Positions 12,906 through 51,892 of a stretch of 64,000 bases of DNA are shown piece after piece. Position 1 is the stretch's first letter; every line of letters starts with the position of its first letter. The position numbers and the translations under genes are program-made. Source of the stretch: Sciurus carolinensis (Eukaryota > Chordata > Mammalia > Rodentia > Sciuridae); contig NC_062218.1 of NCBI RefSeq assembly GCF_902686445.1, positions 11,941,015 through 12,005,014 on the forward strand, read 5' to 3'. Under the pieces are notes generated by a model. The model saw nothing but the letters and a program-made list of their open reading frames with translations. It was not told the DNA's origin and ran no database searches.

Positions 12906-12949
12906 TAAAGGAAAACCACTCAAAGGAGAAACCAAGTCAAGTTAAAAAC

Positions 12950-19587: not shown

Positions 19588-20328
19588 CTCCGGCATGCAA
19601 GCAGCTTCAGGGACCAGGATAGGGCAGCCAGAGACCTCCCCAAGTAGCCTGGACCCCTGCGGTGGGAGGTGCCTTTCAAGGCTACCTTCTCAGACCAGAC
19701 CGCCCAGTGAGAGGCTTTCTACATAGAACCAGCCACAAGTCCCCGAACCAACGGAGAGCTTCAATCTGCAAGCAGCCTCTGGGATCAGGGCAGGGCAGCC
19801 AGAGACCTCTTCAGGCGGCTCTGCCCACTCCGGCCGCAGGCTCTCTCCACGGGGCGATCCAAGAGGCGGCCTAGAGGGTGACTGCACCCCCAGTCGCTCC
19901 AGAACCCAGGAGTTAAGAAGGGGAGGCATTGAGAGACTCGGACTGAAATAGAGCCACGGGTGAGTCTGCCCACGGGGTAAAGCTCGGCCCGGGTGGCAGG
20001 CACAGATAGGGGTGGCTTATCAGAGCAGGGCAGGGCAGCTAGAGTCTTCCCCAGGTAGCCTTCCACACTCCGGCAGTGGGCTCCTCCCACACGGCCAGCT
20101 GCTTGGTGCAGGCCCCCAGTGAGAGCCTTTCCGCACAGAGCCACCTCCAAACCCTGGAACCAGTAGGGGGTTAGGGGCAGCTTTCTTCGGATGCACTGCA
20201 TTATCAAATTTCTCCAAGACATCAGGCTACTGAAGGCTGGGAGGTGATACACTGGAAATCTACAGGGACACTATAAGCCAATAGCGGAAATCTGCAATAT
20301 CTCAGGGTCCCACTGACAGCTGACCAAT
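19588..20328 (+). promoter_or_regulatory. 5'UTR of the young L1 with monomer-like repeats
   Basis: 741 bp, GC- and CpG-rich compared with its surroundings. A module starting GCAAGCAGC recurs at 19597 and 19768, a 171-bp offset. Both copies carry GGGCAGCCAGAGACCTC, then a hexamer-rich GTAGCC/GCGGC segment, then a CCAGTGAGAGGC- or CCGCAGG-type segment. A third, shifted copy begins near 20018 (TTATCAGAGCAGGGCAGGGC). This is the layout of a tandem-monomer L1 promoter as known in mouse L1 families. The 3'-proximal 110 bp (20215-20328) is shared with the old L1, and the rest is not. Confidence 0.8.
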
Positions 20329-21376: not shown

Positions 21377-21431
21377 AGGAATAGCCAAATAAAGGAGAAA
21401 CCAAATCATGTCAAAAACAAATATGAGTCAA

Positions 21432-24400
21432 ATGACTGGGAATACAAATCATATCACAATAATAACCCTGAATGTTAATGACCTGAACTCATCAATCAAA
21501 AGACATAGACTGGCAGATTGGATTAAAAAGAAAAATCCAACAATATGCTGCCTGCAAGAGACTCATCTCATAGAAAGAGACACCCATAGACTAAAGGTGA
21601 AAGGATGGGAAAAAACATACCATGCCCACGGACACAGCAAAAAAGCTGGAGCATCCATCCTCATTTCAGATAATGTGGACTTCAAACCAAAACTAGTCAG
21701 AAGGGATAAAGAAGGACATTACATGCTGCTTAAGGGAAGCATAAATCAGCAAGACATAACAATCATAAATATCTATGCCCCGAACATTGGCTCATCCACG
21801 TACGTCAAACAAATCCTTCTCAATTCCAGAAATCAAATAGACCACAACACAATCATACTAGGTGATTTTAACACACCTCTCTCACCACTGGATAGATCGT
21901 CCAAACAAAAATTGAATAAAGAATCTATAGATCTCAACAACACAATCAACAATTTAGACTTAACGGACATACATAGAATATACCATCCAACAAAGAACAA
22001 ATACACTTTCTTCTCAGCAGCACATGGATCCTTCTCTAAAATAGACCAGATTTTATGCCACAAAGCTACTGTTAGCAAATACAAGAAGATAGAGATACTA
22101 CCTTGTACTCTATCAGATCATAATGGATTGAAATTAGAAATAAATGACAGAATAAAAAACAGAAACTTCTCCAATACCTGGAGATTAAACAACACACTAT
22201 TATATGATGAATGGATAACAGAAGACATCAGGAGGGAAATCAAAAAATTCTTAGAAGTAAACGAGAACAAAGATACATCATATCAAAATCTCTGGGACAC
22301 TATGAAAGCAGTACTTAGAGGAAGATTTATTTCATGGGGCGCATTCAAAAAAAGAAGTAGAAATCAACAAATAAACGTCTTAACACTACAGCTCAAAGCC
22401 CTAGAAAAAGAAGAGCAGACCAATACCAAAAGTAGTAGAAGACAGGAAATAGTTAAAATCAGAGCCAAAATCAACGAAATTGAAACAAAAGAAACAATTG
22501 GAAAAATTAACAAAATAAACAGCTGGTTCTTTGAAAAAATAAACAAAATTGATAAACCCTTAGCCACACTAACAAAGAGAAAGAGGGAGAAAACTCAAAT
22601 TACTAAAATTCGGAATGAACAAGGAAACATCACAACAGACACGACTGAAATACAAAACATAATTAGAAGCTATTTTGAAAATCTATACTCCAACAAAACA
22701 GAAAACCTCGAAGACATCAACAAATTTCTAGAGACATATGAATTACCTAAACTGAACGGGGAGGACATACACAACTTAAATAAACCAATTTCAGGCAATG
22801 AAATAGAAGAGGTCATCAAAAGCCTACCAACAAAGAAAAGTCCGGGACCAGATGGGTTCTCAGCCGAGTTCTACAAAACCTTTAAAGAAGAGCTCATTCC
22901 AATACTCCTCAAAGTATTTCATGAAATAGAAGAGGAGGGAACCCTCCCAAACTCGTTCTATGAAGCCAATATCACCCTGATACCTAAACCAGACAGAGAC
23001 ACATCGAGGAAAGAAAATTTCAGACCAATATCCTTAATGAACATCGACGCAAAAATTCTCAACAAAATTTTAGCAAATCGCATACAAATATATATTAAAA
23101 AGATAGTGCACCACAATCAAGTGGGTTTTATCCCAGGGATGCAAGTTTGGTTCAACAGTCAGAAATCAATAAATGTCATTCACCATATCAACAGACTTAA
23201 AGTCAAGAATCACATGATTATTTCAATAGATGCAGAAAAAGCATTCGATAAAATACAGCATCCCTTCATGCTCAAAACACTAGAAAAAATTGGGGTAGTG
23301 GGAACATTCCTTAACATTATAAAGGCCATCTACACTAAGCCCATGGCTAATATCATTCTAAATGGTGAAAAACTGAAAGTGTTCCCCTAAAAACTGGAAC
23401 AAGGCAGGGATGCCCTCTTTCACCACTTCTATTCAACATCATCCTTGAGACTCTAGCCAGAGCAATTAGACAAACCAAAGAAATTAAAGGGATACGAATA
23501 GGAAAAGAAGAACTCAAACTATCCCTGTTCGCTGATGACATGATTATATATTTAGAGGAACCTGGAAATTCCACCAGAAAACTTTTAGAACTCATAAGTG
23601 AATTCAGTAAAGTAGCAGATTACAAGATCAATGCTCATAAATCCAATGCATTTTTATACATAAGTGATGAATCTTCAGGAAGAGAAATTAGGAAAACTAC
23701 CCCATTCACAATAGCATCGAAAAAAATAAAATACTTGGGAATCAATCTCACAAAAGAGGTGAAAGACCTCTACAATGAGAACTACAGAACACTAAAGAAA
23801 GAAATTAAAGAAAACCTTAGAAGATGGAAAGATCTCCCATGTTCCTGGATAGGCAGAATTAATATTGTCAAAATGGCTATACTACCTAAAGTGCTATACA
23901 GATTCAATGCAATTCCAATTAAAATCCCAATGATGTACCTTGCAGAAATAGAGCAAGCAATTATGAAATTCATCTGGAAGAATAAAAAACCTAGAATAGC
24001 TAAAGCAATCCTCAGTAGCAAGAGCGAAGCAGGGGGTATCGCAATACCAGATCTTCAACTCTACTACAAAGCAATAGTAACAAAAACGGCATGGTATTGG
24101 TACCAAAATAGACAGGTAGATCAATGGTACAGAATAGAGGACATGGACAAAAACCCAAATAAATACAATTTTCTCATACTAGACAAAGGTTCCAAAAATA
24201 TGCAATGGAGAAAAGATAGCCTCTTCAACAAATGGTGCTGGGAAAACTGGAAAACCATATGCAATAGAATGAAATTAAACCCCTATCTCTCACCCTACAC
24301 AAAACTCAACTCAAAATGGATCAAGGACCTCGGAATCAGACCAGAGACCCTGCATCTTATAGAAGAAAAACTAGGTCCAAATCTTCAACTTGTTGGATTA

Positions 24401-25231
24401 GGATCAGACTTCCTTAACAGGACTCCCATAGCACAAGAAATAAAAGCAAGAATCAACAACTGGGATAGATTCAAACTAAAAAGCTTTCTCTCAGCAAAGG
24501 AAACTATCAGCAATGCCAAGAGAGAGCCTACAGAGTGGGAGAATATCTTTGCCAACCATACTTCAGATAGAGCGCTAATTTCCAGAATCTATAAAGAACT
24601 CAAAAAACTCTACACGAAGAATACAAATAATCCAATCAACAAATGGGCTAAGGAAATGAACAGACACTTCACAGAAGAAGATGTACAAGTAATCACCAGA
24701 TATATGAAAAAATGTTCAACATCCCTAGTAATAAGGGAAATGCAAATCAAAACTACCCTAAGATTTCATCTCACCCCAATTAGAATGGCGATTATCAAGA
24801 ACACAAGCAACAATAGGTGTTGGCGAGGATTTGGTGAAAAAGGAACACTCATACATTGCTGGTGGGGTTGCAAATTAGTGCAGCCACTCTGGAAAGCAGT
24901 GTAGAGATTCCTCAGAAAGCTTGGAATGGAAACACCATTTGACCCAGCTATCCCACTCCTTGGCCTATACCCAAAGGACTTAAAATCAGCATACTACAGA
25001 GATACAGCCACATCAATGTTCATTGCTGCTCAATTCACCATAGCCAGATTGTGGAACCAACCTAGATGCCCTTCAGTTGATGAATGGATAAAGAAACTGT
25101 GGCATATATATACAATGGAATATTACTCTGCAATGAAGAATGATAAAATTATGGCATTTACAGGCAAATGGACGAAATTGGAGAATATCATGCTAAGTGA
25201 GATAAGCCAATCTCAAAAAACTAAAGGATGA
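21432..25231 (+). pseudogene. L1 ORF2 (endonuclease-reverse transcriptase), two lesions
   Basis: ORF2p nicks the target and primes reverse transcription there. An in-frame ATG at 21408 exists. I prefer 21432 ([16 protein letters not shown]) because it puts the catalytic residues at the human L1 numbers: Glu43 (QETH), Asp145 and Asn147 (GDFN), Ser228-Asp229-His230 (SDH), and Asp702 of the FADD reverse-transcriptase motif at 23528-23539. A 1-bp loss near 23388 (codon about 653) shifts the frame, and TAG at 24902 falls at codon 1158. The frame then runs to TGA at 25229. In the C-terminal cysteine motif (24818-24871) the second Cys position (24830-24832) encodes Phe. LNVND has Asp where the older copies have Gly. 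Confidence 0.94.
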
Positions 25232-25591
25232 ATGATCTCGCTGATAAGCGGGTGAGGACGTATAATGGGGGGTGGGAGGGGTTAGCATTAGGTTTAGGGT
25301 TAGGTTTAGGGTTAGGGATAAGGAGAGCGGTAAGAATGAAGGAAAGAAGGACTGTATAGAGGGAAAAGAGGGGTGGGAGGGGTGGGGGGGAAGGAAAAAA
25401 ATAATCAAACATCATTGCCCTATGTAAACGTATGATTACACAAATGGTATGCCTTGACTCTATGTACAAATAGAGAAACAACATGTATCCCATTTGTATA
25501 TAATAATAAAAAATAAATAAATAAATAAATAAAAACAAAAACAAAAAATTTTAAAAAATAAAATCAGACTAAAAAAATCTCAAAAAAAAAA
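25232..25591 (+). other. 3'UTR and A-rich tail of the young L1
   Basis: A G-rich 3'UTR follows the ORF2 stop. It has telomere-like TTTAGGG/TTAGGG units at 25281-25317 and a four-run G tract at 25370-25390. Next come a conserved terminal segment (CATTGCCCTATGTAAACGTA, ATGTATCCCATTTGTATATA) and an (AAAT)n and A-rich tail with AATAAA motifs around 25506-25530. The tail is unusually long (about 85 bp) and interrupted. Confidence 0.9.
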
Positions 25592-25605
25592 AATCTAACA
25601 AAAGA
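25592..25605 (+). repeat. Target-site duplication of the young L1, right copy
   Basis: AATCTAACAAAAGA, identical to 19574-19587. ORF2 sequence of the interrupted second L1 resumes immediately after it (AGTGAAAGACCTCTACAATG). Confidence 0.95.
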
Positions 25606-26147
25606 AGTGAAAGACCTCTACAATGAAAACAATGGAACACTAAAGAAATTGAAGAAGAACTTAGAAGATGAAAAGATTTCCCATGCTCCTGGATAGGCAG
25701 AATTAACTTTGTAAAAATGGTCATACTACCAAAAGCATTAAACATATTTTATTCAATTCCTATTAAAATCCCAATGACATTCCTCATAGAGATAGAAAAA
25801 GCAGTCATGAAATTCATTTGGAAAAATAAGAGACTCAGAATAGCCAAAGCAATCCTTAGCCAGAATTAATTAAGCAGGAGACATCACAATACCAGAACTT
25901 AAATTGTACTACAGAACCATAGTAACAAAATCAGCATGGTATTGGCACCAAAACAGATACACAAATCACTGGTAGAGAATAGAAGACACAGAGACAGCCC
26001 CACATAAATACAGTTTTCTCATACTAGACAAAGGTGCCAAAAACATACATAAAGAAAAGATACTCTTCAACAAATGGTGCTGGGGAAACTGGAAATCCAT
26101 ATGTAGCAAAATGAAATCAAGCCCTTAACTCTCACCCTGCACAAAAA
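25592..26147 (+). mobile_element. Second L1, downstream part (ORF2 RT/thumb region)
   Basis: This continues the element split by the young L1. The order of ORF2 sequence is preserved across the insertion (GTGAAAGACCTCTACAATGA, TGGATAGGCAGAATTAA, GACATTCCTCATAGAGATAG, ATACCAGAACTTAAATTG). Stops and frameshifts are frequent. It ends at TCACCCTGCACAAAA, equivalent to about 24300 in the young copy. Confidence 0.85.
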
Positions 26148-26199
26148 TCCAGTGTGCTTCCTGCCTTCCCATTCCATTTTGAAGTGCCTTCTGCTTTGC

Positions 26200-29939: not shown

Positions 29940-30144
29940 ACACTAAGTGACTGCAGTTGGACCAACTCCCACAGGTTAAAGCCTTCGTCCTAGAGACTGT
30001 CCTCAATTGCAAGTAGGGGGTCCCCGGGTTACCCACACTTCTGTACTTACCTACAGATCTGAGGTGCCCGTGATTCCCACTCCAGGCTCAATTTATTAGA
30101 ACAGCTCACACAACGCAGGAAACGCTTGACTTACTATTGCCAGT
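29940..30144 (-). mobile_element. ERVL-type LTR (MLT2-like), left part
   Basis: TTACCCACACTTCTGTACTT and AACAGCTCACACAACGCAGG lead into CTTACTATTGCCAG, where the class I ERV is inserted. The homology continues after the ERV at 36502. The family name is by memory of the consensus, and the outer border is approximate. Confidence 0.6.
30140..30144 (+). repeat. Target-site duplication of the ERV, left copy
   Basis: GCCAG directly before the TG of the 5' LTR. It is repeated at 36502-36506. Confidence 0.85.
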
Positions 30145-30416
30145 GAGGGGACAATGGGTTAAAAAGGCTGCAGTCATTTCTCCCCTGTTATTTTGCTGCT
30201 GCCCTTATTCTACCTCCCCCACACCATTTTACCACCTAGACTGTTGGCCCGTGAACTTCTTATCAGCCATTGGTCCAAACATTAGCCCACCAGCTTCCTC
30301 GTCAGTCATTGGTCCATGAGATTCCCTCTCAGCCTACAGGCAGACACTCGGCCTGTCTGCATATTAAAATCTCTTGTGTGAGTTCCCGCATCTGGAGTGG
30401 TTTCCTGGTGCTTTCA
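30145..30416 (+). repeat. 5' LTR of the ERV
   Basis: 272 bp from TGAGGGGACA to GTGCTTTCA. It contains ATTAAA at 30363 where the 3' LTR has AATAAA, then TCTCTTGTGTGAGTTCCC and TCTGGAGTGGTTTCCTGG shared with the 3' LTR. It lacks the CT repeat and about 60 bp of neighbouring sequence present in the 3' LTR. Confidence 0.93.
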
Positions 30417-30417
30417 T

Positions 30418-30435
30418 TGGTGCCGTGACTCAGAT
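30418..30435 (+). other. Primer-binding site for tRNA-His
   Basis: TGGTGCCGTGACTCAGAT starts 2 bp after the LTR end. It matches the complement of the tRNA-His 3' end with one mismatch (A for G at position 15). This site sets minus-strand priming in retroviral reverse transcription. Confidence 0.9.
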
Positions 30436-30915
30436 GGGCTCTTCTACCGCCACTTAGGCGAGTGGAATCCCATCTGTCACCCCAGACCCTGAGACACTGG
30501 TCTCACCTTCCATTTGCCCACCTTCTGTTCCCCCAGACGCTCTCCTCCATATCCAGACTCTGACTTCAGAGTGGTGAGTTTTCCCTTAGGTCGACTTAAA
30601 CACTCCTCTGCTGACCTGAGATGCACTGTTGATCGTCTGGCACCCTCGAGGCAGTTGAGGAGTGGGGGTTCCCCAGCCACGACCTTTATAGGTATGGCTG
30701 GCCCCCTGAGTTGACCTTATCTGATGGGTGGGTCCCCGATCTTTATGGTGGAGATTCTCTCTCTAAGTTGAGGCTCCTCTTCACTTTCCCTCTTGAAAAT
30801 CCTGGTGCCAGGTCCTCAACCCTTCGACTTTTGCCCAGCACACACTGACGGGGATGACAACTCCCATCATTGTGTTGCCTTCTCATCTCCAATTAGTCTG
30901 TGACCTTGGGATGCC
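30436..30915. other. ERV leader region
   Basis: Untranslated leader between primer site and gag remains, C/T-rich. I cannot identify a packaging signal or splice donor with confidence. Confidence 0.5.
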
Positions 30916-31699
30916 TTGGACACTGACTTGGCTGTATCAGTCCCCACTATGGGGTCTGGGTCCTCCATTCCAGCAGATTCACCCCTGGGGTGTCTCTTTG
31001 GTGGCCTAAAGTCACCAAAACTTATTCACTTGTGTAACAATATTTGGTCACAGTATCCTTTAGATAATCAATCCAAAATGGCCACCTATTGGCACCCTGG
31101 GTCCCAGTGTTTTATGGGACTTATACAACTTCTGTGAATGAGCAGGCAAATGAAAGGGATTCCTTATCTTCAAGTTTTCTCTTTCTTGTCCACTAAACTT
31201 GATTTTTGCTCTTCTTGCAAACCAAACACCTTCTTTTGGCTTTTTCTCCTCCTCCTAATCCCTCCTCCTCCTCCAACTTTGACCCAGCTGACAAACCACC
31301 CCCTACTTATTATTTTTCCCAAAGCTACCCAGACACAAAGGCTAAATTGAGATGGTTGGATAGGGGGACCCCTCACCCCACAGGCAGAGGTTCTAGCGGT
31401 GGCATTCAGGGTGTATAATGGAACGGAAGAAAACAAAAACTAAAATACCAAATGCTAACCAACACCTTTCAGCCAGCTGGCCACTACTAGGGGCACCAGA
31501 AGACCTCCAAGCTCATGCCCCAAGTGCAGAAAAGAGGACCACTGGGCACGAGCATGCCCCAACCCCCAGCAGCCTCCAGGTCCTTGTCCAAAATGCCACC
31601 AACCAGGACATTGGGCAGTGGATTGCCTGGGTGCTCAGAGAAGTGCCAGGTCACTGCCCCCCACCCAGTGACTTACTGGGATTAGCAATGGATGACTGA
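30916..31699 (+). pseudogene. ERV gag remnant (matrix, proline-rich, end of capsid, nucleocapsid)
   Basis: Gag forms the retroviral particle. A matrix-like segment (CNNIWSQYPLDNQ, within 31030-31080) is followed by a proline-rich stretch with a PPTY late-domain-type motif (31299-31310). Directly after comes what looks like the very end of capsid (EVLAVAFRVYNG, 31387-31422). The body of capsid is therefore deleted. The nucleocapsid has two in-frame CX2CX4HX4C zinc knuckles (31516-31557 and 31585-31626). A TAA at 31441 lies between capsid end and nucleocapsid, and the pieces are spread over more than one frame. It is not functional. Confidence 0.85.
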
Positions 31700-34600
31700 A
31701 GGGGCCCAGGACTTCTACACCTGACAACCATCACCGCTCAGGAGCCCTGGGTGACCCTTACAGTGGCAGGCAGGCAGCTCCCTTTCCTTATAGATACTGG
31801 AGTCACCTTTTCAGTGCTGCAGAAGTTTTGGGGATCCACTTCCCCTGCCAAATCCTTTATTATTGGGGTAGAGGGAAAACCATACCAACCCCTAAAAGCC
31901 CCTCCAATAATTTGCCATATCAGACAAATCTGCTTCACTCATTCCTTTTTGATAATTCCTTGGTGTCCCATTTCCCTCCTGGGAAGGGACACCCTAACTA
32001 AATTGGGTGCCTCTATTTCCTTCTTACCCACCATGTGCCTCCACCAAGACTCCTCTGCTATTCCTCTCATCTTGACCTTGCAAGAACATACAACCCAACC
32101 TGAGTCTTCATATCCCCTTCCTCCCTCCCTTGTTGACCCCAAGGTCTGGGACACCCTCACACCCTCTTTAGCCACATGCTCACCTGCACTCATTCGCCTG
32201 AAAGACCCAACATCTTACCCAGCCCAGGTCCAACATCCCCTTCCCCAAAGAAGTCTTTTAGGGCTTCAACCAGTCATCCAGGATTTGAGGCAGAAAGCCT
32301 TCCTGAGCCCCGCCAACTCGCCTGATAACACTCCCATTCTGGCCGTTAGGAAGCCTAATGGATCCTACCAATTGATGCAAGATCTCCACATCATTAACTT
32401 GGCAGTTGTTCCCAGATTCTTCATTGTGCCCAATCCCTCACTTTGCTTTCCTCTATCCCCTCCTCCACTTCTCTGTGTTGGATTTGAAGGACACCTTTTT
32501 CACTGTCCCTCTTCATCCTGACTTGCAAGATCTCTGCCTTCACCTGAACTGACCCTCTCACTCAAGTTTCTTCTCACTTGACCTGGACAGTTCTCCCACA
32601 GGGATGTCGGGACAGCCCTCACCTCTTTGGCCACTGTCTCATGATCTTGACTCTCTTACTTTCATTTCTTCCTCTCTCTTATAGTATGTTGATGATCTTC
32701 TATGTAGTCCCTCTCGAGGACGCCCAAGGGGACACTATTAAGCTTCTAAATTTTATGGCTGATAGAGGGTATAGGGTCTCTCCAGCAAAGGTACAGTTTT
32801 CCCAACCTCGGGTTATTTACTTAGGAGTCAGCCTCTCACCTGGATTTAAGGCCATCACTGTAAGAGAAAAGCATTGTTGCAGAACATGCCCACTCCATCT
32901 ACCAGGGAAGTAATCCTTTCCTTTCTAGGGCTAGCAGGAGATTTATCATTCTGGATCCCAAATTTTTCCATCCTGGTGGCCCCTTGTATGAGGCTTCAGA
33001 GGGCGCTCCCACTGAACCTCTTCTCAACCCGGTGGAAGCCCCTTTCCAGACCCTAAGGAAAGCCCTCTTCAAGTTCCAGCCCTACGCCTCCCTGACATCA
33101 CCAGACCCTTCTTCCTTTTTGTCTCTGAGAAAAGTGGGCTCATTCTGGGGGTCTTAGGGTACATATTTGGTCCTACTTTTGGCCTAGTGGCATACCTATC
33201 AAAAAGGCTAGACGCTACTATTAAAGACTGGGCGCCATGTCTTAGGGTATTGGCTGTAGCATTTGTCTTAACCCAGGAATCAAAAAGCTTTACTTTGGGG
33301 CTCCCACTGAAGTGCTCTCACCTCATGATTTGTCCAAGCTTCTAACTTATAAAAGCCTGCAAACTCTACCACCCTGTCTGGCGTTAGCCTTGCAAACTGC
33401 TCTTATTGAGGACTCTTCCATTTCCTTTAAGATATGCCCTCCTTTAAATCCAGCCACCCTCTTGCCCCCCACCTTCCAACATACATGCTTCAGCAACCCA
33501 TAACCTTGAGATTCTGGAAGAGTTACTCCCCTGCCCCTCCAATGTCCAGGAGGGGGCCTTACACAACACTACTTTCATATGGTTCACTGGTGGGAGCTCT
33601 TTTCTCCATGAAGGGATTTGATGGGCTGGACATGCCATTGTCTCCCTGGAAAAGGCTGTAGAGTTGGGACCACTACCTAACCACACCACCAACTAACAGG
33701 CAGAAATAGTCACCCTCACCCGCACATTCACCCTCGCAAAGGGAGAATCCCTCACAATCTACACTGACTCCAAATGTGCTTTTCATATTCTCCTTTTGCA
33801 TGCTGCTATTTGGAAAGAGAGGGGCCTTCTTACCACAAAAGGGAACTCCATGACCAACTCTAGCTACATCCTAAACCGCCTTGAGGTTCTTCACCTCCCA
33901 GCAACCATAGGTCGTGTACATTGCCGAGTTCATCAGACAGACCAATCATTCATCTCTTCAGGCAACAACAAGCCTCATCTGAGGAGGCTAGAAGAGCAGC
34001 CCTATCATGCACACCAGCCCCCGTTATGACTCTCCATAATCCCTTACCTCCATCACCTCCCAACAGGGAGGTACTTTCATACCTCCACCATTTATTTCAC
34101 CCCAACCTTTCTTCACTCTCACAATTTGTTAAGACTCATTTGCAGTTATCTTCCTCTGACATCTCATTTCTGAAGGAACTCTCCTCCACATGTGAGATTT
34201 GCCTATGAACTAATCCTACAGCCATCAGAGCCCCTACTTTTCTGACTCACCAGGCCCGTGGTGCCATTCCAGGGGTAGACTGGCAATTGATTTCACTCAT
34301 ATACCCACAGTAAGAAAATCTAAATACCTTTTGGTCATGGTAGACACCTTCTTGGGATGGGTTGAAGCCATCCCCACTTCCAACAAAAGGGCACTAACTG
34401 TCTCTACCTTCATCCTTTATGAAATTCCTCACTTTGGAGTGCCTACCTCCTTCCAGTCAGATAATGGGCCTGAGTTCATCTTCCAAGTTTCTCAACAATT
34501 TGCCAAGGCTATTGGAGTCCCTTGGAATTTCCACATTCCCTTTCACACAAAGTTATCAGGTAAAGTAGAACAAACAAACCGGACTCAAAAATGTCTTAAA

Positions 34601-35035
34601 CAAATTTCTTTAGAACTTCACCTTGACTGAGTTTAACTCCTGCCTCTTGCTCTTCTGCGTCTTCACTTGCTCCCAAAGAAACCTGCCAATATCTCCCCTT
34701 TTGAGCTGATGTATGGTCATACCATCCTTCCCCCAGGGTTATTGCCCCTTCCTGCCCCTCCTCCTTCTCATATAAACCACATTCGGGCATTCCTATGGGG
34801 TTATGCTGACTCCTCCCTGCCCAGACCCTTGTCTGCCCCCCTGGCTCAACCTCTTCAAATTGGAGACCTAGTTCTTACCTCTCCTCCTCAGGAGGCTACA
34901 GCCCCTCTGTCTCCCAAATGGCAGGGACCTCATACAGTGGTCCTGCCTATGCCAACGACTGTCAAGGTGTGAGGTTTACTGGGATGGCTACACATTTCTC
35001 TGGTTAAGCTCTACTCTCAATCCACAAACCCCTCT
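31700..35035 (+). pseudogene. ERV pro-pol remnant (protease, RT, RNase H, integrase)
   Basis: Pol carries the retroviral enzymes. The protease active-site Asp-Thr-Gly is at 31793-31801, with the flap-distal GRDTL signature near 31983. The reverse transcriptase begins in the same frame (AVRKPNGSYQ), then shifts frame at least twice. The LPQG motif near 32593 is in one frame and YVDD (32685-32696) in another. RNase H shows the YTDSKCAF segment near 33763. The integrase has His and Cys residues of the zinc-binding domain (34060-34205), SDNGPEF near 34458 and VEQTNR near 34568, so Asp and Glu of the core remain. A C-terminal domain follows to about 35030. Multiple stops interrupt it. Confidence 0.9.
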
Positions 35036-35214
35036 CCAGCTTCTAACCCTCAGGCTTCTTCCAACCAATACTCAGCCACCCCAGTGGGACCTCTCCGCCT
35101 CAGGCTGAAGACCATCAAGCCCTCTACCCTTCTTCCCATTCCGGAGACCAAGGACCAGAACGCCAAGGCACCAGACAACCATACCCAGTCATGAGGACTG
35201 GACTGTCAGCTACA

Positions 35215-35929
35215 TAATTGTCTCCCCTGCCATTCATCCTGTCTGCCATTTTCCTAACTATCAAATTTTCCCCTAATAGATCTGTCCAGGTGCCAGTCAT
35301 TTCCTCCTTCCCGGCTTGCCCACAGGACTGCTGGAAGACCGACTCCTACTGTCCCCAGGGATGTTTTGCCCATTTTACATATGTTCACAGCTGATGCTCA
35401 GAGGATCCACTCTTAACACAGAGAGTCACCACCACACACCACACACTCAATTTAACTAATCCTCTCATGGCACAGGGATATTGGATGTGCATGAGAGCAG
35501 GGTTCTCTCATCTCCTGGCTAGCACCCTAGACTTTAGCAGCTCTTTGACTTTCAACAGCACCCACTGGAGCAGGCAGATATCACCCCAAAATTATCAGGA
35601 GTGCCTCTCTACAATTTGCTTCCAGGTGCACATCTTCCAATGGAAGCCACCCTGTGGGTTCACTAGAAAAAGGGAAGTGCTCTCAGGAAGAGTGCTGCTT
35701 CTATGTCGACCAATCAGGTGTTGTTAAGGACAAGATCAAACAGCTGCAGGAGGACTTGGAGAGGAGAAGGAATGATTCTCCCATTTATATCCCCCACTCC
35801 TTATAATTGTCATCATACTGGCCTTTGCCCCCTGTACATTGAAATGTGCACAAAATCAGATTCAAGAAAATTTTCTTTCTAATCAGACTATTAATCAGCT
35901 TGTATTATAGGACTATAGGGACCTCATAA
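35215..35929 (+). pseudogene. ERV env remnant (mostly deleted)
   Basis: Env is the surface/transmembrane glycoprotein of retroviruses. Only about 0.7 kb is left, far less than a typical env. The clearest piece is the transmembrane-subunit segment with [11 protein letters not shown] near 35683-35715, followed by a charged helix ([11 protein letters not shown]) and a hydrophobic anchor-like run ([10 protein letters not shown], about 35803-35832). The Cys spacing before the Cys pair is shorter than the usual CX6CC, so a small deletion is likely. The surface subunit is almost entirely gone. Confidence 0.75.
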
Positions 35930-36110
35930 AGGAAGAATTGGGGTCTGGCTACAAGTGCACTCCCCAGGGGACCTATCCGGTCCCCAATCCTCACATACTG
36001 CAATGACATCTCCCTGCCCTGAAACAGCTCTATGACCACACCCAGCAGGAAGCATTTACTGAAGATGAATCTTTGTCCATATGCCTCCCCCCAAAAGGGG
36101 ATCTTCTTAT

Positions 36111-36129
36111 AAAAACAAAAATGGGGGAA
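36111..36129 (+). other. Polypurine tract of the ERV
   Basis: AAAAACAAAAATGGGGGAA lies immediately before the TG of the 3' LTR, where plus-strand priming occurs in retroviruses. The run is interrupted by C and T. Confidence 0.85.
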
Positions 36130-36356
36130 TGAAGGGACAATGCATTAAAAAGGCTACAGTCATTTCTCCCCTGCTATTTTGCTACCACCATTATTCTGCC
36201 TCCCCCCACGCCATTTTACAACCTAGATTGTTAGCCCGAGAACTTCCTCATCAGTCATTGGTCCAATCATTAGCCTGCAAACTTCCTACTCAGTCATTGG
36301 TCCAGATTGTTAGTAGCCCATGAAATTCCACTTCTTAAGAATAGCTCCCCCACCAT

Positions 36357-36416
<60 letters not shown>

Positions 36417-36501
36417 TCTGAGGGCACACACTCTGCCTGTCCACTTAATAAAATCTCTTGTGTGAGTTCCCATGTCTGGAGTGGTTTTCTGGGTGCTTTC
36501 A
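36130..36501 (+). repeat. 3' LTR of the ERV, with CT expansion
   Basis: 372 bp from TGAAGGGACA to GTGCTTTCA, 100 bp longer than the 5' LTR. The extra length is a (CT)n run at about 36358-36413 and the sequence just before it. The polyadenylation signal AATAAA is intact at 36447-36452. Confidence 0.93.
36358..36413. repeat. (CT)n microsatellite inside the 3' LTR
   Basis: Almost pure CT dinucleotide run, absent from the 5' LTR, so it expanded after (or was lost from one LTR after) integration. Confidence 0.95.
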
Positions 36502-37020
36502 GCCAGCATATTATAAAAGATACTATAAAAAATTCAGATGAACAGACAGATTCAGAAGAAGATTCATGAGGTGGGGTCTGGAAGGGTCCCAAGCACAGGA
36601 GCTCTGTCCCATGGAGTTGTGGTATACCACCCTCCAGGCATGTGGGTGCATTCACCAAGCAAGAAGCTCCCTACATCAAATATTCAGGGTTTTTAGGGAG
36701 GCTCCATCCACAGGGATGGTTGATTAAATCATTGACCATTGGAGACTAATTCAATCTCCAGCCCCTACCTCTACCTGAAGGTCAGTAGGGCCAGAAGTTT
36801 CTAAGTGCCTGGTTCCTAGGACTGAATGCTCTAATCACATGGTAGGTTTCTCTGGAAGCCTCAGCCATCTTGAGGCTATCTACAGGGCCCCTGGCAACCA
36901 CCAGTCATCTCATTAGAACAGAAAAGAAATATCACTCTGAAGATTTACAGTCTTAGAAGCTCTAGTGTCAGGAACCAGAACAGAGATCAACATATAAATC
37001 TTATGGGGTCCCCTCAGGTA
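36502..37020 (-). mobile_element. ERVL-type LTR (MLT2-like), right part; begins with the ERV duplication GCCAG
   Basis: GATGGTTGATTAAATCATTG, CATTGGAGACTAATTCAATC, TCTAATCACATGGTAGGTTT and TCAGGAACCAGAACAGAG occur in the order of an MLT2-like LTR on the minus strand. They continue the piece at 29940-30144. Positions 36502-36506 (GCCAG) are the right target duplication. Confidence 0.65.
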
Positions 37021-37059
37021 CAGAAGGTACAGGTCAGCTGTGAGCAGGACGTTCACATA

Positions 37060-40000
37060 CACAGTGCACCTAAATCTGATGCACTGATGCACTTCTGCCT
37101 CACCTGCAGCTCCTGCATCTCACACTGAAGAACTTCTGCCTCCCACTCAGTCTTCCCTGGGGCTCCTACACCTGACACACTGAGGCACTTCTACTCAGCC
37201 ACACCTGGAGCTCTTGCACTGAGGCACTGAGGCATTTTAACCGCCCTCTCAACCACACCTGGAGTTCTTATGCCTGAGACACTGCCACCTCTCAGTCACT
37301 GCTGGGCTCCGACACCTGACAGAGGCACTGTCAACACTCAGCCACACCTGGGGCTCATACACCTGACACACTGATTCACTTCTACCTTCCCCTAACCAAC
37401 ACCTGGGACTCCTGAACCTAACACACTGAGATATTGCAATCTCTCAGACACACCAGGGGTTCCTTCACCTGACACACTGAGGAATTGACAATTTCAACCA
37501 CACCTGGGCTCCTACACCTGACACACTGAGGCACAGCCAACTCTCACTCACACCAGGGTTCCCACACCTGACTCAGTGAGGCACAGTCACCTCTCAGTCA
37601 TACCTGGGCTCCGACAGCTGACACACTGAGGCACAGACAACTCTCAGTCACACCTGGACTCCTACACCTAACAAACTGAGGCACCGTCAAATCTCAGTCA
37701 CACCTGGACTCCTACACAAGACACACTGAGGCACAGTCACCTCTCAGTCACACCTGGGCTCCGACAGCTGAAACACTGAGATACAGCGACCTCTCAGTCA
37801 CACCAGGACTCCTACACCTGACACACTGAGGCACCATCACCTCTCAGTCACACTTGGGCTCTTACACCTGACACACTGAGGCACTGTCACCTCTCAGTCA
37901 CACCTGGGCTCCTACACCTGAAACACAGAAGCACAGAAACATCTCAGTCACACCTGGGCTCCTACACCTGACACACTGAAGCATCGTCAACTCTCAGCCA
38001 CACCTGGGCTCCTACACCTGTCACACTGAGGCACTGTCACCTCTCAGTCGCACCTAGAATCCTACACCTGACACACTGAGGCACCATTACCTCTCAGTCA
38101 CACCTGGGCTCCTACACCTGACACATTGAGGCACAGTGATCTCTCAGTCACACATGGACTCCAACCTGACACACTGAGACACTGCCACATCTCAGTCACA
38201 CTTGGGCTCCTACAGCTGACACAATGAGGCACTTCCATCTCAGCCACACCTGGGCTCCTATACCTGACACACTGATCACTGAAACATCTCACTCACAACT
38301 GGGCTCCTACACCTGACACACTCAGGCACTGTCACCTCTCAGACTCAATTGGGCTCCTAAACCTGAAACACAGAATCATGAACACATCTCAGTCACAACT
38401 GGGCTCCTACACCTGACACACTGAGGCACTGTCATCTCTCAGTCACACCTGGGATCCTACACTGGACACACTGAGGCACTGTTACCTCTCAGTCACACGT
38501 GGGCTCCTACACCTGACACAATGAACTTTGTACGCTCTCAGCCACACCTGTGCTCCTACACCTGACACACTGAGGTACTGCTAACACTCAGCCACACCGG
38601 GAACCATACACCTGGCACACTGCAGTACTGCCAACTCAGTCACACCTGGACTCCTACACCAGACACACTGAGGACCATCAAATCCCAGCCACACCTGGGC
38701 TCCTACAGCTGACACACTGAGGCACAGTCAAATCTCATTCACACCTGGGCTCCTAAACCTGACACACTGAGGCACAGTCAAATCTCATTCACACCTGGGC
38801 TCCTAAACCTGACACACTGAGGCACTGCCACCTCTCAGTCACACCTGGGATCCCACACCTAACACACTGAGGCACAGACACCTCTCAGTCACACCTGAGT
38901 TCCTACACCTGACACACTGAGGCACCATTACCTCTCAGTCACACCTGGGCTCCTACAGCTGACACACTAAAGCACAGCCTCAGTCATACCTGGGCTCCTA
39001 TACCTGACACACTGAGGCACAGTCACCTCTCAGTCACACCTGAGTTCCTACACCTGACACACTGAGGCACAGTCAAATTTCTGCCACACCTGGGCACCTA
39101 CAACTGACACACTGAGATACTGCCACCCCTTAGCCACATCTGGGATCCTAAACGTGAAAAACTGAGGATCTCCAAACCTCTCAACCACATCGGGCTCCTA
39201 CACCTGACACACTGAGGCACAGTCACCTTTCAGTCACACCTCAGCTCCTAGTGCTGACAACTAGGCACAGCCACCTCTCAGTCACACCTGGGCTCCTACA
39301 GCTGATACACTGAGGCACTGCCACCTCTCAGTCACACCTGAACTCCTGCATCTGACACACTGAGGCACAGCCACCTATCAGTCACACATGGGCTCCTACA
39401 CCTAACACACTGAGGCACTGCCACCTCTCAGTCACACCTGGGCTCCTACACCTGACACACTGAGGCATCGTACTGTCTCCAGAACAGCAGGGCTCCTACA
39501 CCTGAAACACTGAGGTACTGCCACCTCTAAACCACACCTGGGATCCTACACCTGACACACTGAGGACCTGCAACCTCTCAGTCACACCTGGAATCCTACA
39601 CCTGACACACTGAGGCACAGCCACCTCTCAGTCACACCTGGACTCCTACACCTGACACACTGAGGCACAGCCACCTATCAGTCACACATGGACTCCTACA
39701 CCTAAAACACTGAGGTACTGTCACCTCGCAACCACACCTGGGATCCTACACCTGACACACTGAGGACCTGCAACCTCTCAGTCACACATGGACTCCTACA
39801 CCTGACAGAGTGAGGCACACCCACCTCACAGTCACACCTAGGCCCCTACAACTGACACAGTGAGGCACAGCCACCTCTCATTTATACCTGGGCTTCTACA
39901 CCTGACACACTGAGGTACTGCCACCTCTCAGTCACACCTGTGATCCTACACCTGATTCACTAAAGCACAGTCAATGCTCAATCACACCTGGGCTCCTTCA

Positions 40001-43000
40001 CCTGACACACTGAGGTACAGCCACCTCTCAGGCACACCTGGGCTCCTTCAGCTGACACACTGAGGCACCGCCACCTCTCAGTCACACCTGGGCGCCTACA
40101 CCTGACACACTGAGAACAGTCACCTCTCAGTCACACCTGGGCTCCTAACCTGACACAATGAGGCACCATCAACTTTCAGCCAGACCTGGGATACTACACC
40201 TGACACACTGAGGACCTCCAAACTCTCAGCTACACCTGGGCTCCTACACCTAACCCACTGAGGCACTGTCACCTCTCAGTCACACCTGCCCTCCAACACC
40301 TGACACACTGTGGCACAGCCAGCTCTCAATCACACCTGGGCTCCTACACCTGAAACACTGAGGCACCGTCACCTCTCAGCCACACCTGGGCACCTAAAGT
40401 TGGCACACTGAGGCACAACCACCTCTCAGTCTCACCTGGGTTACTACAGCTGACATGCTGAGGCACTGCCACCTCTCAGTCACATCTGGAATTCTATACC
40501 TGACACACTGATGTACTGCCACCTCTCAACCAAACCTGGGATCCTACACCTGACACAATGAGGACCTCCAACCTCTCAGCCACACCTGGGCCACTACACC
40601 TTACACACTGAGGCACAGCCTCCTCTCAGTCACACCTGGGCTCCTACACCTGAAATGCTGAGGCACAGCCACCTCTCAGTCACACCTGAGATCCTACACC
40701 TGACATACTGAGGCACTGTCACCTCTCAGTCAAACCTGGGCTCCTACACCTGACACACTGAGGCACAGTCTATTCTCAGCCACACCTGGGCAGCTACCTC
40801 TGACACACTGAGGTACTGCCACCCCTCAGTCACACCTGGGATCCTAAACGTGACAAACTGAGGACCTCCAAACCTCTCAACCACATTGGAATCATACACC
40901 TGACACACGGAGGCACAGCCAACTCTCAGTCACATCTGGGCTCCGACACCTGACACACTGAGGCACTACCACCTCTCAGTCACACCTGGGCTCCTAAGGC
41001 TGCCACACTGAGGCACTACCACCTCTCAGTCACACCTGGGCTCCTACACCTGACATGTTGAGGCACTAAACCTCTCAGTCATACTTGGGCTCCTAAAGCT
41101 GAAACACTGAGGTACAGCCACCTCTGAGTCACACCTGGGCTACTACACCTGACACACTGTGGCACAGCCACCTCTCAGTCACACCTGGGTACCTACACCT
41201 GACACACTGAGGCACTGCCACCTCTCAGTCACACCTCAGTTCCTAGAGATGAAAACTAGGCACAGCCACCTCTCAGTCACACCTGGGCTCCTTCAGCTGA
41301 CACACTGAGGCAGTCAAATCTCAATCACACTTGGGCACCTACAACTGACAAACTGAGGTACTGCCACCCCTCAGCCACACCTGAGGACCTCCAAACCTCT
41401 CAACCACATTGGGCTCCTACACCTGACACAGCCACCTCTCAATCACACCTGGGCTCCTACACCTGAAATCTGAGGCACAGCCACCTCTCAGTCACACCTG
41501 AGATCCTACACCTGACACACTGAGGCACAGTCATCTCTCCGTCACACCTGGACTCATACACCTAACACACTGAGGTACAGCAAACTCTCAGTCACACCTG
41601 GGCTCCTACATCTGACACACTGAGTCACTGCCACCTTTCAGTCTCACCTGGGCACCTACACCTAACACACGGAGGCACTGTCTCTTCTCAGTCACACCTG
41701 GGCTCCTACACCTGACATACTGAAGTATTGCGAACTCTCAGCCACACCTGGGATCCTACAAAGGACACACTGAGGACCTCCAACCTCTCAGTCACACCCA
41801 GCTCCAACACTTTACACACTGTGACTCTGTCAACCCTTAGTCGCAACTGGGGTCCTCTATCTGACACACTGAGGCACAGTCACCTCTCAGTCACACCTGG
41901 GTTCCTACAGCTGACACACTGAGGCAGAGCCACCACTCAGTCACACCTGGGAGCCTACAGCTGACACACTGAGACACTAACACCTCTCAGTCACACCTGG
42001 GCTACTACACCTGACACACTGATGTACTGCCACCCCTCAGTCACACCTGAGCTCCTACATCTGACACACTGAATCAATGTCACCCCTCAGTCACAACTGG
42101 GTCTCCTACACCTGACACACTGAGGCACTGCCACCGCTCGGTCACCCCTGGGTTCCTACACCTGACGCATTGAGGCACACCTAACACTCAGTCACTCCTG
42201 GGCTACTACACCTGACACACTGGGGCACTGTCACCCCTCAGCCACACATAGGCTTCTAAACCTGACACACTGAAGCACTGCCACCTCTCAGTCACACCTG
42301 GGTTCCTACACCTGACACACTAAGGCACTACCACCTCTCATCCACACCTGGGCTACTACACCGACACACTGAGGCACTGCCAAATCAGAGCCACACCTGG
42401 GCTTCTACACCTGATGCACTGAGGTACTGCCACATTTGGTCATGCCTGGGCTCCTACACCTAACACACTGAGGCACTGGCACCTCTGAGTCACACCTGGG
42501 CACCTACACCTGACAAACTGAGGCACCGCCACCTCTCTGTCACACCTAGGCTCCTACAGTTACACACGGAGGCACTGTCATCTCTCAGTAATACCTGGGC
42601 TCCAACACCTGACACACTGAGGCACGGTCACCTCTCAGTCACACCTGGGCACCTACACCTGACAAACTGAGGCACCACCACCTCTCTGTCACACCTAGGC
42701 TCCTACAGTTACACACGGAGGCACTGTCATCTCTCAGTAATACCTGGGCTCCAACACCTGACACACTGAGGCACACAGTCACCTCTCAGTCACACCTGAG
42801 CTCCTACAACTGACACAATGAGGCACTGTCACCTCTCAGTCACTCTTGGGCTCTTTTTCCTGACACACTGAGGCACAGCCACCTCTCAGTTATGCCTTGC
42901 CTCCTACACCTGACACACTTAGGCACTGTCACCCCTCATCCACACCTGGGCTCCTACACATGACACACTAAGGCACTGCACCTCTCAGTCTCACCTGGGC

Positions 43001-45398
43001 AACAACACCTGACAAACTGAGGCACTGCTGCCTCTCATTCAAATCTGGGATCCTACACCTTACACACAGAGGCACTGCCACCTCTCAGACATACCTGAGC
43101 TCCTCCACCTGACACACTGAAGTACTGCCACCTCTCCGCCACACCTGGGCTTCTACACCTGACAAACTGAGGCAATGTCACCCCTAAGCCACACCTGGGC
43201 TCCTACACCTGACACTGACGCAATGTCACCACTCAGTCACACCTGGTCTGCTACACCTGAAAAACTGAGGCACTGGCAACACTCAGCCACAACTGGGTTC
43301 CTATAGCTGACACACTGAGGCACTGTCAACTTTCGGTCACACCTGGACTCCTACACATGACACAAAGTGGGACTGCAACCTCTTATTCACACCTGGGCTC
43401 CTACACCTGACACACTGATGCACTGCCAACTCTCAGTCACACCTGGGCTCCTACACCTGACAAACTGAGGCACTGCCACCTCTCAACCACACCTGTTGTC
43501 CTTCACCTGACACACTGAGGCAATGTCAACTCTGGTTCACACCTGGGTCCTACATGTGACACAATGAAGCACACCAATTCTCAGTCACACCTGGGCTCCT
43601 ACACCTGTCACACAGAAGCACTGTCACCTCTCAGTCACACCAGGGCTCCTATCCCTGACACACTGAGGCACCGTCAACTCTCGGCCACACCTGGGATCCT
43701 ACATCTAACACACTGAATACTGCCACCTCTCAGCTACACCTGGGATACTTCACCTAACACACTAAGGCCCTCCAACCTCTCAGCCACACCTGGACTCCTA
43801 CACCTGACACACTGAGTCACTGCCACCACTCAGTCATACCTGGGCTCCTACACCTGACACACAGAGGCACTGCCACCTCTCAGTCACACCTGGGCTACTA
43901 CACCTGACACACTGAGGCACTGCCACCTCTCAGTCTCACCTGGGCTCCTACACCTGACACACAGAGGCAAAGTCACCCCTGAGCTACAACTCGATCTCCT
44001 ACCCCTGACACACTGATGTACTGCCTCTCCACCTCTCAGCCACACCTGGGCTCCTACACCTGACATACTGATGTACTGCCGCCTCTCCACCACACCTGGA
44101 CTCCCACACTTCACAAACTGAGGAAATGTCACCTCTCAGTCACACCAGGGCTCCTAATCTGACACACTGCGACAATGTCACCACTCAGCCACATCTGGGT
44201 CTCTACACCTGACACACTGAGGCACCTCCACCTCTCAGTCACACCTGGGCTCCTAAACCTGACACACTGAAGCACAGCCACCTCTCCATCACACCTGGGC
44301 TCCTACAGCTGACACACTGAGGGATTATCACCCCTCAGCCACACCTCGGTTCATACACCTGACACACTGTGGCACAGCAACGTCTCCGTCACACCTGGGC
44401 TCCAACAACTAGCACACTGAGGCAATGTCACCTCTCAGTCACACCTGGCCTCCAACACCTAGAACATGGAGGCAATGTCACCTCTCAGTCACACCTAGGA
44501 CTACACCTGACACACTGAGGTACCATCATGTCTCAGCCACACCTGGACCCCTGTACCTGACACATTGAGGTATTGCCACCTCTCAACCAATTCTGGGATC
44601 CTACACCTGATACAGAGAGGACCTCCAACCTCTCAGCCACAACTGGGCTCCTACAGTTGACACACTGAGGCACTGCCACCTCTCAGCCACACCTGAGCTC
44701 CTAAACCTAACACACTGAGGCACTGCCAACTCTTAGTCACACCTGGGCTCCTACTCCTGACACACTGAGGCACCATGAGGTCTGGCCACAAATGGCCTCT
44801 TACATCTGACACAGTGAGGCACTGCCACGTCTCAGTCACACCTGGGATCCTAAACCTGACACACTGAAGCACTGTCACCTCTCAGCCACACCTGGGCTCC
44901 TACACTTGACACACTGAGGCACTGCCAACTCTCAGCCACACCTTAGCTCCTACAACCGACACACAGAAGCACAGCCACAACTGAGTCACACCTGGGCTCC
45001 AAAGGCTGACACACTGTAGCAATGTCACCCCTCAGTCACACCTGGGATCCTACACCTGACACACTGAGGCACTTGCACCTCTCAGCCACACCTTGCCTCT
45101 GACAGCTGACACACTGAGGCAATATCACCCCTCTTTCAAACCTGGGCTCCTTCACCTGATACACTGAGGCACTGCCACCACTCAGCCACACTGGGTCTCA
45201 TACACCTGAAAAACTGAGGCACTGCCACCTCTCAGTCACACCTGGGCTCCTACAGCTGACACACTGAGGCACTGCTAACTCTCAGTCACACCTGGGCTCC
45301 TACACCTGACACACTGAGGCACTGCCACCTCTCTGTCACACCTGGGCTCCTACACCTGACACACTGAAGCACTGCCACCTCTCAGTCACACTCAGACT
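37060..45398. repeat. 8.3-kb tandem array of a 50-bp satellite-like unit
   Basis: Roughly 165 head-to-tail copies. The consensus, split for reading, is CTCAGTCACACCTGGGCTCC, TACACCTGACACACTGAGGC, ACTGCCACCT. The period of 50 is seen directly, for example at 45241 and 45291. Copies vary by substitutions and small indels. The first few hundred bases (37060-37500) are the most irregular, and the units near 45230-45390 are the closest to consensus. The plus strand is C-rich (21 C against 9 G per unit). Each unit has two CACCTG sites and a 6-bp inverted repeat (ACTGAG...CTCAGT, 12-nt loop). Open frames within it are repeat artefacts. I know no named satellite with this unit. Confidence 0.97.
42491..42788. 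repeat. Higher-order duplication within the 50-bp array
   Basis: A three-unit block starting CACACCTGGGCACCTACACC at 42491 is repeated almost exactly from 42640, offset 149 bp. It includes the private variants CTACAGTTACACACGGAGGC and CTCTCAGTAATACCTGGGCT. This is a recent local duplication of a 3-mer. Confidence 0.9.
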
Positions 45399-45923
45399 CC
45401 AAGGTATTTTCTACGAATACTTAAAAATTATTATAAGATTTAAAGTCAAATGTATTTTGTCTCATTCCTGATCCTTGAGCAGTATGCCACTGATGTATTT
45501 TTAGACTTGTCCACAAGGTGGAGCTATTCTCCAAGCAACTCTTGCTAAACAGCAGTGCACAGGTATTTTCAAATTTTTCATTGGGAAGTGTCACATTAGG
45601 AGTTTTGACAGGGTGGCTCATTAATTGCCACCCTAGGAATCATGAGTTAAGGTAAAGGTCGACATTTCTAGAACTACTTTAGTAGATGAAGGGCAGGGCA
45701 GATAAGGAAAGGCCTTTGAGCGTGTGGTGCCAGGCACACCTCTGTGCCTCCCCACATGGATCCACGATGACCCTGTAGATAGCTTCATCCCCCACCTTAG
45801 AGAGCAGAAAGTCCTGCTTCGGGAAGCAGCTGAGAATGTGAGGGTCTGTCTGACCGCAACGCCCCTTCTTACTTCTCTGTCATTCCAGGAATGAGGGTGC
45901 CAGTACTGAGTCTGAGAGGGACT
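45399..45923. other. Unassigned sequence
   Basis: Unique-looking DNA after the satellite. No gene or repeat recognised. Confidence 0.5.
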
Positions 45924-47516: not shown

Positions 47517-47530
47517 ATGCAGTGTGTGCG

Positions 47531-47565
<35 letters not shown>

Positions 47566-47912
47566 CTCTGTGTGTTTGTGTGTGTGTATCTGTGTGTGCA
47601 TGTATGTCTCTGTGTGTTTGTGTGTGTGTATCTGTGTGTGCATGTATGTCTCTGTGTTTGTGTGTGTGTATCTGTGTGTGCATGTATGTCTCTGTGTTTG
47701 TGTGTGTGTATCTGTGTGTGCATGTATGTCTCTGTGTGTTTGTGTGTGTGTGTGTGTGCATGTATGTCTCTGTGTTTGTGTGTGTGTGCGTATCTGTGTG
47801 TGCATGTATGTCTCTGTGTTTGTGTGTGTGTATCTGTGTGTGCATGTATGTCTCTGTGTGTGCGTGTGTGTGCACGTGTGTGTGCTCGTGTGTGTGTGCA
47901 CACGTGCATATT
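47517..47912. repeat. TG-rich 40-bp minisatellite
   Basis: A TG run (47517-47560) leads into about eight copies of a 40-bp unit (CATGTATGTCTCTGTGTTTG, then TGTGTGTGTATCTGTGTGTG). The period is seen at 47641 and 47681. It ends in a TGCACGTG/TGTGCTCG-rich run. Six-frame translation gives long Cys/Val or Thr/His frames on both strands, up to 402 codons, purely because the repeat lacks stops. Confidence 0.93.
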
Positions 47913-51166: not shown

Positions 51167-51892
51167 TGTTGTAGTGGATCGAATAACGGCAAAGAGGTCT
51201 GTATTGCACTCCCAGAACCCGTGGGTGTGCAAACAAATAGGTCTACATCATAACCCCATGAACCTAAGGTTGCAGGCGGAATTAAAGTCGCTAATCAGAG
51301 CATGGTGGCACACGCCTGCAATCCCATCGGCTCGGGAGGTTGCAGCAGGAGGATCTCAAGTTCAAAGCCAGCCTCAGCAACTTAGCAAGGCCCTCAGTAA
51401 CTCAGTGAACTCCTGTCTCAAAATAAAAAATAAAAAGGTCTGGGGACGTGGCTCAGTGGTTACGCATCCCTAGGTTCAATCCCCAATACAAAAATAAGTT
51501 GCAAATCAGCTGATCCTAAACTGGAGGGCTGCCTGGATTATCTAGGTGAGCTCAACGCAATCATAGAGGCCTCTAAAAATGCATGAAAGGGGCAGGAGAG
51601 GGAGTCAGAGAAAGACCAGGGACTAAGAAGCACCATGAGAGAGTGGCAACATGCTGACTTCGAAGAGGCCACAAGCCAAGGTAAGCAGTGACCTCTGGGA
51701 GCTGGAAAAGCAGAGGCACAGATTGTCCCCTAGGACCTCCAGAAGGACGGCAGCCTCGCCAGGGCTCAACTCTCACCCAGTGAGACCCATGTCAGCTGTC
51801 TGAACTGGAGACCTGAAGGATAACGCTTCCATTGTATAAACCACAAAACTTTGGAATAACTTGTTACAGTAGCCCGAGGAAGTTAGCACAGC
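51167..51892 (+). mobile_element. ERVL/MaLR-type LTR split by a SINE
   Basis: TGTTGTAGTGGATCGAATAA, AACCTAAGGTTGCAGGCGGA, (SINE), TGCCTGGATTATCTAGGTGA, ATGCTGACTTCGAAGAGGCC and AACTTGTTACAGTAGCCCGA follow the order of an MLT-type LTR on the plus strand. The SINE at 51299-51500 interrupts it with flanking direct repeats. Confidence 0.65.
51299..51500 (+). repeat. B1-ID heterodimeric SINE with target duplication
   Basis: B1 half (GCATGGTGGCACACGCCTGC, AGCAGGAGGATCTCAAGTTC), A-rich linker, ID half (GGTCTGGGGACGTGGCTCAG, GGTTCAATCCCC), A-rich tail. Flanking 9-bp repeats GCTAATCAG (51290-51298) and GCAAATCAG (51501-51509) differ by one base. The element lies inside an LTR. Confidence 0.92.

Follow-up and report, generated by a model that had tools for sequence, protein, structure and literature searches.

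Among the closest described systems to the array reported here is the human minisatellite class of variable number tandem repeats (VNTRs), with patterns that start at 7 bp and extend to several hundred bp (PMC8096271). The VNTR in intron 18 of human ABCA7 is built from a 25-bp unit and can reach 10,678 bp (PMC5954066), and satellite DNA families are presented in a review as abundant and classically heterochromatic (PMC10048060). In a 64,000-nucleotide stretch of the Sciurus carolinensis genome, which is called the window in the following (C6:11941015-12005014, on a 162 Mb contig of a 2.8 Gb assembly in 752 contigs), an 8.3-kb tandem array of a 50-bp unit lies upstream of DNAH5. This array is probably an ancient, large, single-locus minisatellite that arose by sudden amplification and whose copies have changed since then by independent point mutation.

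The array occupies positions 37076-45391 of the window on the plus strand and consists of 167 traces of a unit with the consensus CACACTGAGGCACTGCCACCTCTCAGTCACACCTGGGCTCCTACACCTGA, as recovered by wraparound alignment with the consensus re-estimated. The original prediction, made from the letters of this stretch, had placed it at 37060-45398, and its bounds were right to about 16 bases. Tandem Repeats Finder, which had been proposed as a check, returned a period of 50 with 162.6 copies and 74% matches at 37274-45391, and the ungapped match fraction at a lag of 50 is 0.67 within the array compared to a mean of 0.275 (standard deviation 0.023) over lags 1-2599. Most statistics on units given below refer to units 9-166 (158 of the 167), which leaves out the incomplete final unit and the decayed units on the left. 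Because the longest exact repeat in the array is only 97 bp, an assembly artefact is an unlikely source. On the plus strand the fraction of C is 0.37 and that of G is 0.17, the minus strand being the G-rich one.

A genome search with the doubled consensus gave 88 matches, all within C6:11978135-11986405, which is a single candidate region. With a 26-bp core of the unit, 99 matches were found when up to three mismatches were allowed: 10 were exact, and 24, 40 and 25 had one, two and three mismatches. All but one of them, 98 in total, fall within the array, and the exception is a three-mismatch site on C2; the reverse of the core, used as a control, had no match in the genome. The prediction that the unit would be confined to one locus was thus borne out within the assembled sequence, which is what the search covers; as it skips very common words, absence of matches is not proof of rarity. 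Abundant copies at many loci, as in a satellite family, were not found within the assembly. Head-to-tail units of 50 bp (167 traces) do fall within the span of 7 bp to several hundred bp, and 98 of the 99 core matches and the one candidate region are at this locus. Since the 50-bp unit and the single locus fit the definition, the array is classed as a minisatellite: it is large, single-locus and ancient, and is no satellite family.

Units differ from the consensus by 0.12 on average (units 5-166), and the mean pairwise distance is 0.205 (units 9-166). Recent turnover, as expected of a hypervariable VNTR, would make neighbours alike; in this array the distance at lag 1 is 0.203 as opposed to the mean of 0.205, with a weak likeness up to lag 12, and a Mantel test gave r -0.002, a value reached in 486 of 999 permutations. 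The number of substitutions per unit follows a Poisson distribution closely (variance/mean 1.09, p 0.21). A simulated star with 12% change produced a lag-1/mean ratio of 1.00 and a variance/mean of 0.90 (50 runs), and the corresponding observed values are 0.99 and 1.09. Simulated turnover with steps of 1-5 units led to lag-1/mean ratios of 0.07-0.54 as means of settings and of 0.05-0.71 in single runs, while steps of up to 20 or 60 units gave ratios of 0.98-1.08 together with a variance/mean of 1.7-6.3. These turnover settings, with four runs each (an earlier set had three runs each and saturated mutation rates), were not exactly tuned: the mean pairwise distance ranged from 0.03 to 0.63 compared to the observed 0.205, was closely matched only by single-unit steps (0.200) and never fell below 0.3 for steps of up to 60. 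Local unequal exchange is disfavoured because its simulation fails to reproduce the observed ratios, and a burst followed by point mutation fits the array best, if imperfectly. In such a history, a founding 50-bp stretch beside an old element resembling a long terminal repeat (LTR) would have multiplied rather abruptly to about 160 copies, possibly through slippage, unequal exchange or rolling-circle reinsertion. After the burst, the copies would mostly have mutated independently, accompanied by rare small interior duplications and faint regional groups of variants.

A local yardstick for the age of the expansion is provided by a provirus at 30144-36501, whose two LTRs are 15% diverged (28 transitions and 13 transversions), or 0.084 per copy after correction. 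Because the distance of units from the consensus is 0.130, or 0.087 without variants above 10%, the expansion would be about as old as this provirus, or somewhat older. From the sequence we infer the burst, its age and a low length variability at present. The array appears to be an old, almost frozen one and not a hypervariable one, which would not be expected from units so diverged.

Several observations weigh against so simple a history. Substitutions in the units have a transition/transversion ratio of 0.82 (0.56-1.18 in a bootstrap over positions), which is unlike plain neutral decay as seen in local controls. When differences between sites are allowed for, the variance of the substitution counts is 1.32 times the expected one (p 0.004), and the star is therefore not a clean one. 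Distances within quarters of the array are 0.2030 compared to 0.2050 after permutation, a small effect that none of 2000 permutations equalled. Of 38 common variants, 4 show regional clustering at p < 0.01, where 0.4 would be expected; examples are position 14 of the unit, with T>A on the left of the array, and position 13, with C>A on the right. Two self-alignments at the level of units, with scores of 51.3 (units 109-112 with 112-115) and 44.0 (units 11-51 with 14-55), exceed the maximum of 38.3 from 60 permutations. Both probably reflect local duplication, and the 41-unit alignment, which contains the pair 50-51/54-55, hints at a longer order. A higher-order repeat was considered and rejected: over lags 1-79 the highest printed z is 2.6 (lag 7), and beyond lag 12 none exceeds 2.5. 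The linkage between variants is also not that of a simple star. A linked group of variants (11A, 12C, 15C and 17A) recurs at scattered sites of the array, and for eight of the nine units carrying it, as judged by eye, the preceding unit has 11T and 38A. Among the ten commonest variants there is almost no linkage, with all four combinations present in 44 of 45 pairs and a mean r2 of 0.014 compared to 0.006 when shuffled; in a wider set of variants, 8 of 1361 pairs are linked after Bonferroni correction. Common variants that are this close to unlinked would be unexpected from a single founder unless sites are hypermutable or were shuffled by conversion, and they point to earlier conversion shuffling or to recurrent mutation in the array.

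The alternative that survives best, although we judge it unlikely, is an actively changing hypervariable minisatellite in which units are frequently gained and lost through local unequal exchange or conversion. Units 34 and 35 (38713-38812, plus strand), which alignment and unit distances reveal as identical neighbours, are a recent single-unit duplication, and units 110-111 are found again as units 113-114 (42514-42761, plus strand) with a mean divergence of 1%, including the 97-bp longest exact repeat of the array. Both would fit active turnover. Likewise, the nearest relative is at most five units away for 21 of the 158 units, where 10.1 would be expected, distances up to lag 12 are on average a little lower (0.2033 compared to 0.2050, 39 of 999 permutations being as low; a small effect), and shared rare variants reach z values of 2.2-2.6 at lags 3, 7, 9 and 12. 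Adjacent units are nevertheless almost as unlike as distant ones (0.203 at lag 1 and 0.205 on average), the local-turnover simulations yield lag-1/mean ratios far below the observed one, and only three pairs of segments lie above threshold, one of which is old (units 42-43 and 76-77, 10% apart).

The clearest recent events are interior, namely units 34/35, units 110-111/113-114 and units 50-51, which were copied as units 54-55 with a mean divergence of 5% (39506-39805, plus strand; alignment and segment comparison). Growth had been predicted to come from inside the array or from the right. The first part of this agrees with the interior position of the closest duplications, whereas the second is not supported, as the right edge does not stand out and divergence shows no trend across the core (r = 0.05, p = 0.53). 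At the left edge, wraparound alignment and resampling of edges delimit a decayed segment of units 1-7 (37076-37421, plus strand), several of them with small insertions or deletions. Units 2-8 have a mean of 11.9 differences compared to 6.4 in the core, a value not reached in any of 20000 resamples, and the irregularity described for this edge is therefore real. The right end is abrupt, with a final partial unit of 32 of the 50 bases in the wraparound alignment (45360-45391, plus strand). Units near this end had been described as close to consensus, and units 163-166 do have a mean of only 3.0 differences, with 0.5% of random four-unit draws being as close. What fails is their special status: a second four-unit run in the core is equally close, such a run is present in 50% of permutations, and the right edge is unexceptional once all four-unit runs are counted.

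The substitution spectrum of the array differs from that of local controls, where the transition/transversion ratio is 1.88 for three L1 copies in the window and 2.15 (28/13) for the LTR pair of the provirus. Changes into A account for 415 of 937 changes in the array (44%; bootstrap 0.35-0.53) compared to 139 of 532 in L1, and C>A exceeds G>T by a factor of 2.45 (bootstrap 1.56-3.96; p 0.008 in a rank test over positions) compared to 1.12 in L1. In addition, A positions are the least altered (median 0.044 as opposed to 0.096-0.12; A compared to all other positions, p 0.0002). Perhaps the array records a strand-asymmetric mutation process, in which bases of the plus strand turn into A much more frequently than would be expected and A itself hardly changes, with lesions on the G-rich minus strand being filled by A; a minus strand that is frequently single-stranded in the germ line may be one example of a cause for such lesions. 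We regard this as doubtful, as several results weaken it. A and T positions alone differ only at p 0.12, and rank tests over positions give p values of 0.14 and 0.70 for the asymmetries of T>A and T>C; in the bootstrap, that of T>A excludes 1 (1.11-6.07) and that of T>C includes it. In L1 itself T>A and T>C are 2.0 and 1.8 times their complements. The ratio of C>A to G>T weakens across the array, with values of 3.9 and 6.3 for the two left-hand quarters and of 1.4 and 1.7 for the two right-hand ones, and falls to 1.86 when common variants are left out, the transition/transversion ratio then being 0.62. With 50 positions in one array, shared ancestry of variants may lie behind much of the bias towards A. 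Two specific causes were rejected. Transcription of DNAH5 through the array lost support as a source of the bias, since the first coding exon is about 41 kb away and the array lies upstream of it, and oxidised G at GG runs as a source of C>A disagrees with the counts per position, since C>A is at least as frequent at the first C of CC pairs as at the second. If the bias towards A does reflect a real mutation process, then some 160 parallel copies of one 50-bp sequence would make a sensitive recorder of it.

It is very improbable that the array is a functional element, in the form of a cluster of CACCTG E-boxes or of a switch-like, G-rich recombination region. There are 180 CACCTG hexamers compared to 22.8 in shuffles, about two per consensus unit by construction, and the minus strand is G-rich with a period of 50. 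The two CACCTG sites are, however, intact in 61% and 49% of units, where the median over hexamers of the unit is 50%, and no clear conservation can be seen. Switch-like regions are made of AGCT-rich repeats and have a constant-region gene nearby; here AGCT is not enriched (28 compared to 37.8 in 20 shuffles), and no immunoglobulin domain was detected among the scanned frames (10, another 10, and 82 of the 175 listed flanking frames of at least 105 amino acids), although short exons could escape such a scan. Coding capacity is lacking in the array, with a longest open stretch of 83 codons and more than 100 stops in every frame. Three inverted repeats of 15 nt are unconvincing, Rfam gave no match at the gathering score, and viral contigs have none to a 35-mer. 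Most likely, the array has no sequence-specific job.

That the array is an outlier of a dispersed or centromeric satellite family, as more than 160 copies in 8.3 kb might suggest, is scarcely credible when 98 of the 99 core matches are here and the doubled consensus yields no second candidate region, although unassembled centromeres could hide copies; to our knowledge, no satellite matches the 50-bp unit.

Regarding the source of the unit, a dimeric origin was rejected, as an alignment between the halves of the consensus does not surpass that of shuffles (90 of 500 reach its score). Derivation from other DNA of the window was rejected as well: the best local match outside about 37000-45450 scored 27, which the best of 200 shuffled chunks also reached, in a comparison that excluded the 75 bp directly beside the array. 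About 75 bp separate the first unit from its left neighbour, an old dispersed element at 36530-36999 (plus strand; the left bound is that of the query only). Of 78 candidate matches to this element 40 were scored, 39 of them elsewhere in the genome, with 68-89% identity and none extending past position 36999 of the window. A diverged element of this kind fits an LTR, in agreement with the LTR-type border predicted on this side, and is presumably of the ERVL/MLT2 type. The unique DNA predicted on the right was found too, as the segment at 45410-45660 has a single match in its own genome, namely itself.

The cilia gene DNAH5 is on the minus strand, and its start codon is about 41 kb from the beginning of the array, which lies upstream of it. 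A tblastn search with a DNAH5 N-terminal sequence gave 28 collinear matches on that strand, the first of which (residues 1-21, 86% identity) is at C6:11937075-11937013; there may be non-coding exons further upstream. Pfam identified pieces of a dynein heavy chain left of the array in the 82 of 175 flanking frames scanned, two on the minus strand and a third being AAA_6, and the best match among solved structures is dynein axonemal heavy chain 5. We take TRIO to be the next gene beside DNAH5 in human. One of the 82 scanned frames (from flanking loci L009-L028 or the window) has a weak match to the LINC-PINT peptide (E 0.00016).

The provirus, which belongs to the left context outside the array, is broken, of gammaretrovirus type and on the plus strand, with LTRs at 30144-30416 and 36130-36501 and a 5-bp target duplication (GCCAG) at 30139-30143 and 36502-36506. 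Its protease, reverse transcriptase, integrase and one envelope piece score above the Pfam cut-off in separate frames, whereas a further envelope piece and the pieces of RNase H do not reach it, and its primer-binding site presumably corresponds to tRNA-His. Further to the left, an L1 block (11811-26149) comprises several copies in the same orientation that are about 80% identical to each other, one with an ORF1 frame and a 511-amino-acid frame bearing reverse transcriptase, beside a 665-amino-acid frame. Degenerate TTAGGG-like repeats occur at 25279-25317; they are probably carried by L1 and not the remnant of an old telomere, as the stretch in which they lie (25116-25512) matches another part of the block, and similar motifs also occur in four flanking loci (L020, L021, L025 and L028). 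A second tandem array, which is GT-rich, follows the main one on its right side at a distance of 2 kb (47518-47897), with a period of 40, 8.7 copies and 89% matches at 47530-47885. A SINE at 51290-51500 would fit a sciurid. In 200 kb of flanking sequence to the left and right, divided into 20 stretches of 10 kb (273 bases read N), no array with a period of at least 8 is longer than about 100 bp.

Among the papers listed for squirrel satellites, none dealt with a sciurid satellite or with this 50-bp unit, which is weak evidence for novelty as subscription journals were mostly outside the search, and for DNAH5 together with tandem repeats or VNTRs a single paper was listed, on copy-number variants in heart defects. 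The locus indicates that a mammalian genome can carry an 8-kb single-locus minisatellite whose units bear the marks of an old expansion and of little later turnover, and it would offer a natural test case for the birth and freezing of such arrays. It resembles human minisatellite VNTRs in unit size and tandem organisation; however, the arrays genotyped in the human survey fit inside sequencing reads, whereas the squirrel array, at 8.3 kb, is far larger (PMC8096271). With satellite DNA families it shares the long tandem array, but it differs from them in being present at one locus in the assembly (PMC10048060). Comparable in size is the ABCA7 VNTR, also a single-locus minisatellite with a short C-rich unit. 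The original prediction had considered the squirrel array too long for an ordinary minisatellite, a view that is not supported, as the ABCA7 VNTR reaches 10,678 bp and the size class was already known (PMC5954066). That VNTR has its 25-bp unit at a splice donor, is strongly length-polymorphic and is said to show slight variation in the sequences of its units (PMC5954066), whereas the squirrel array has a unit of 50 bp, lies upstream of the first coding exon found and consists of units that are 12% off their consensus.

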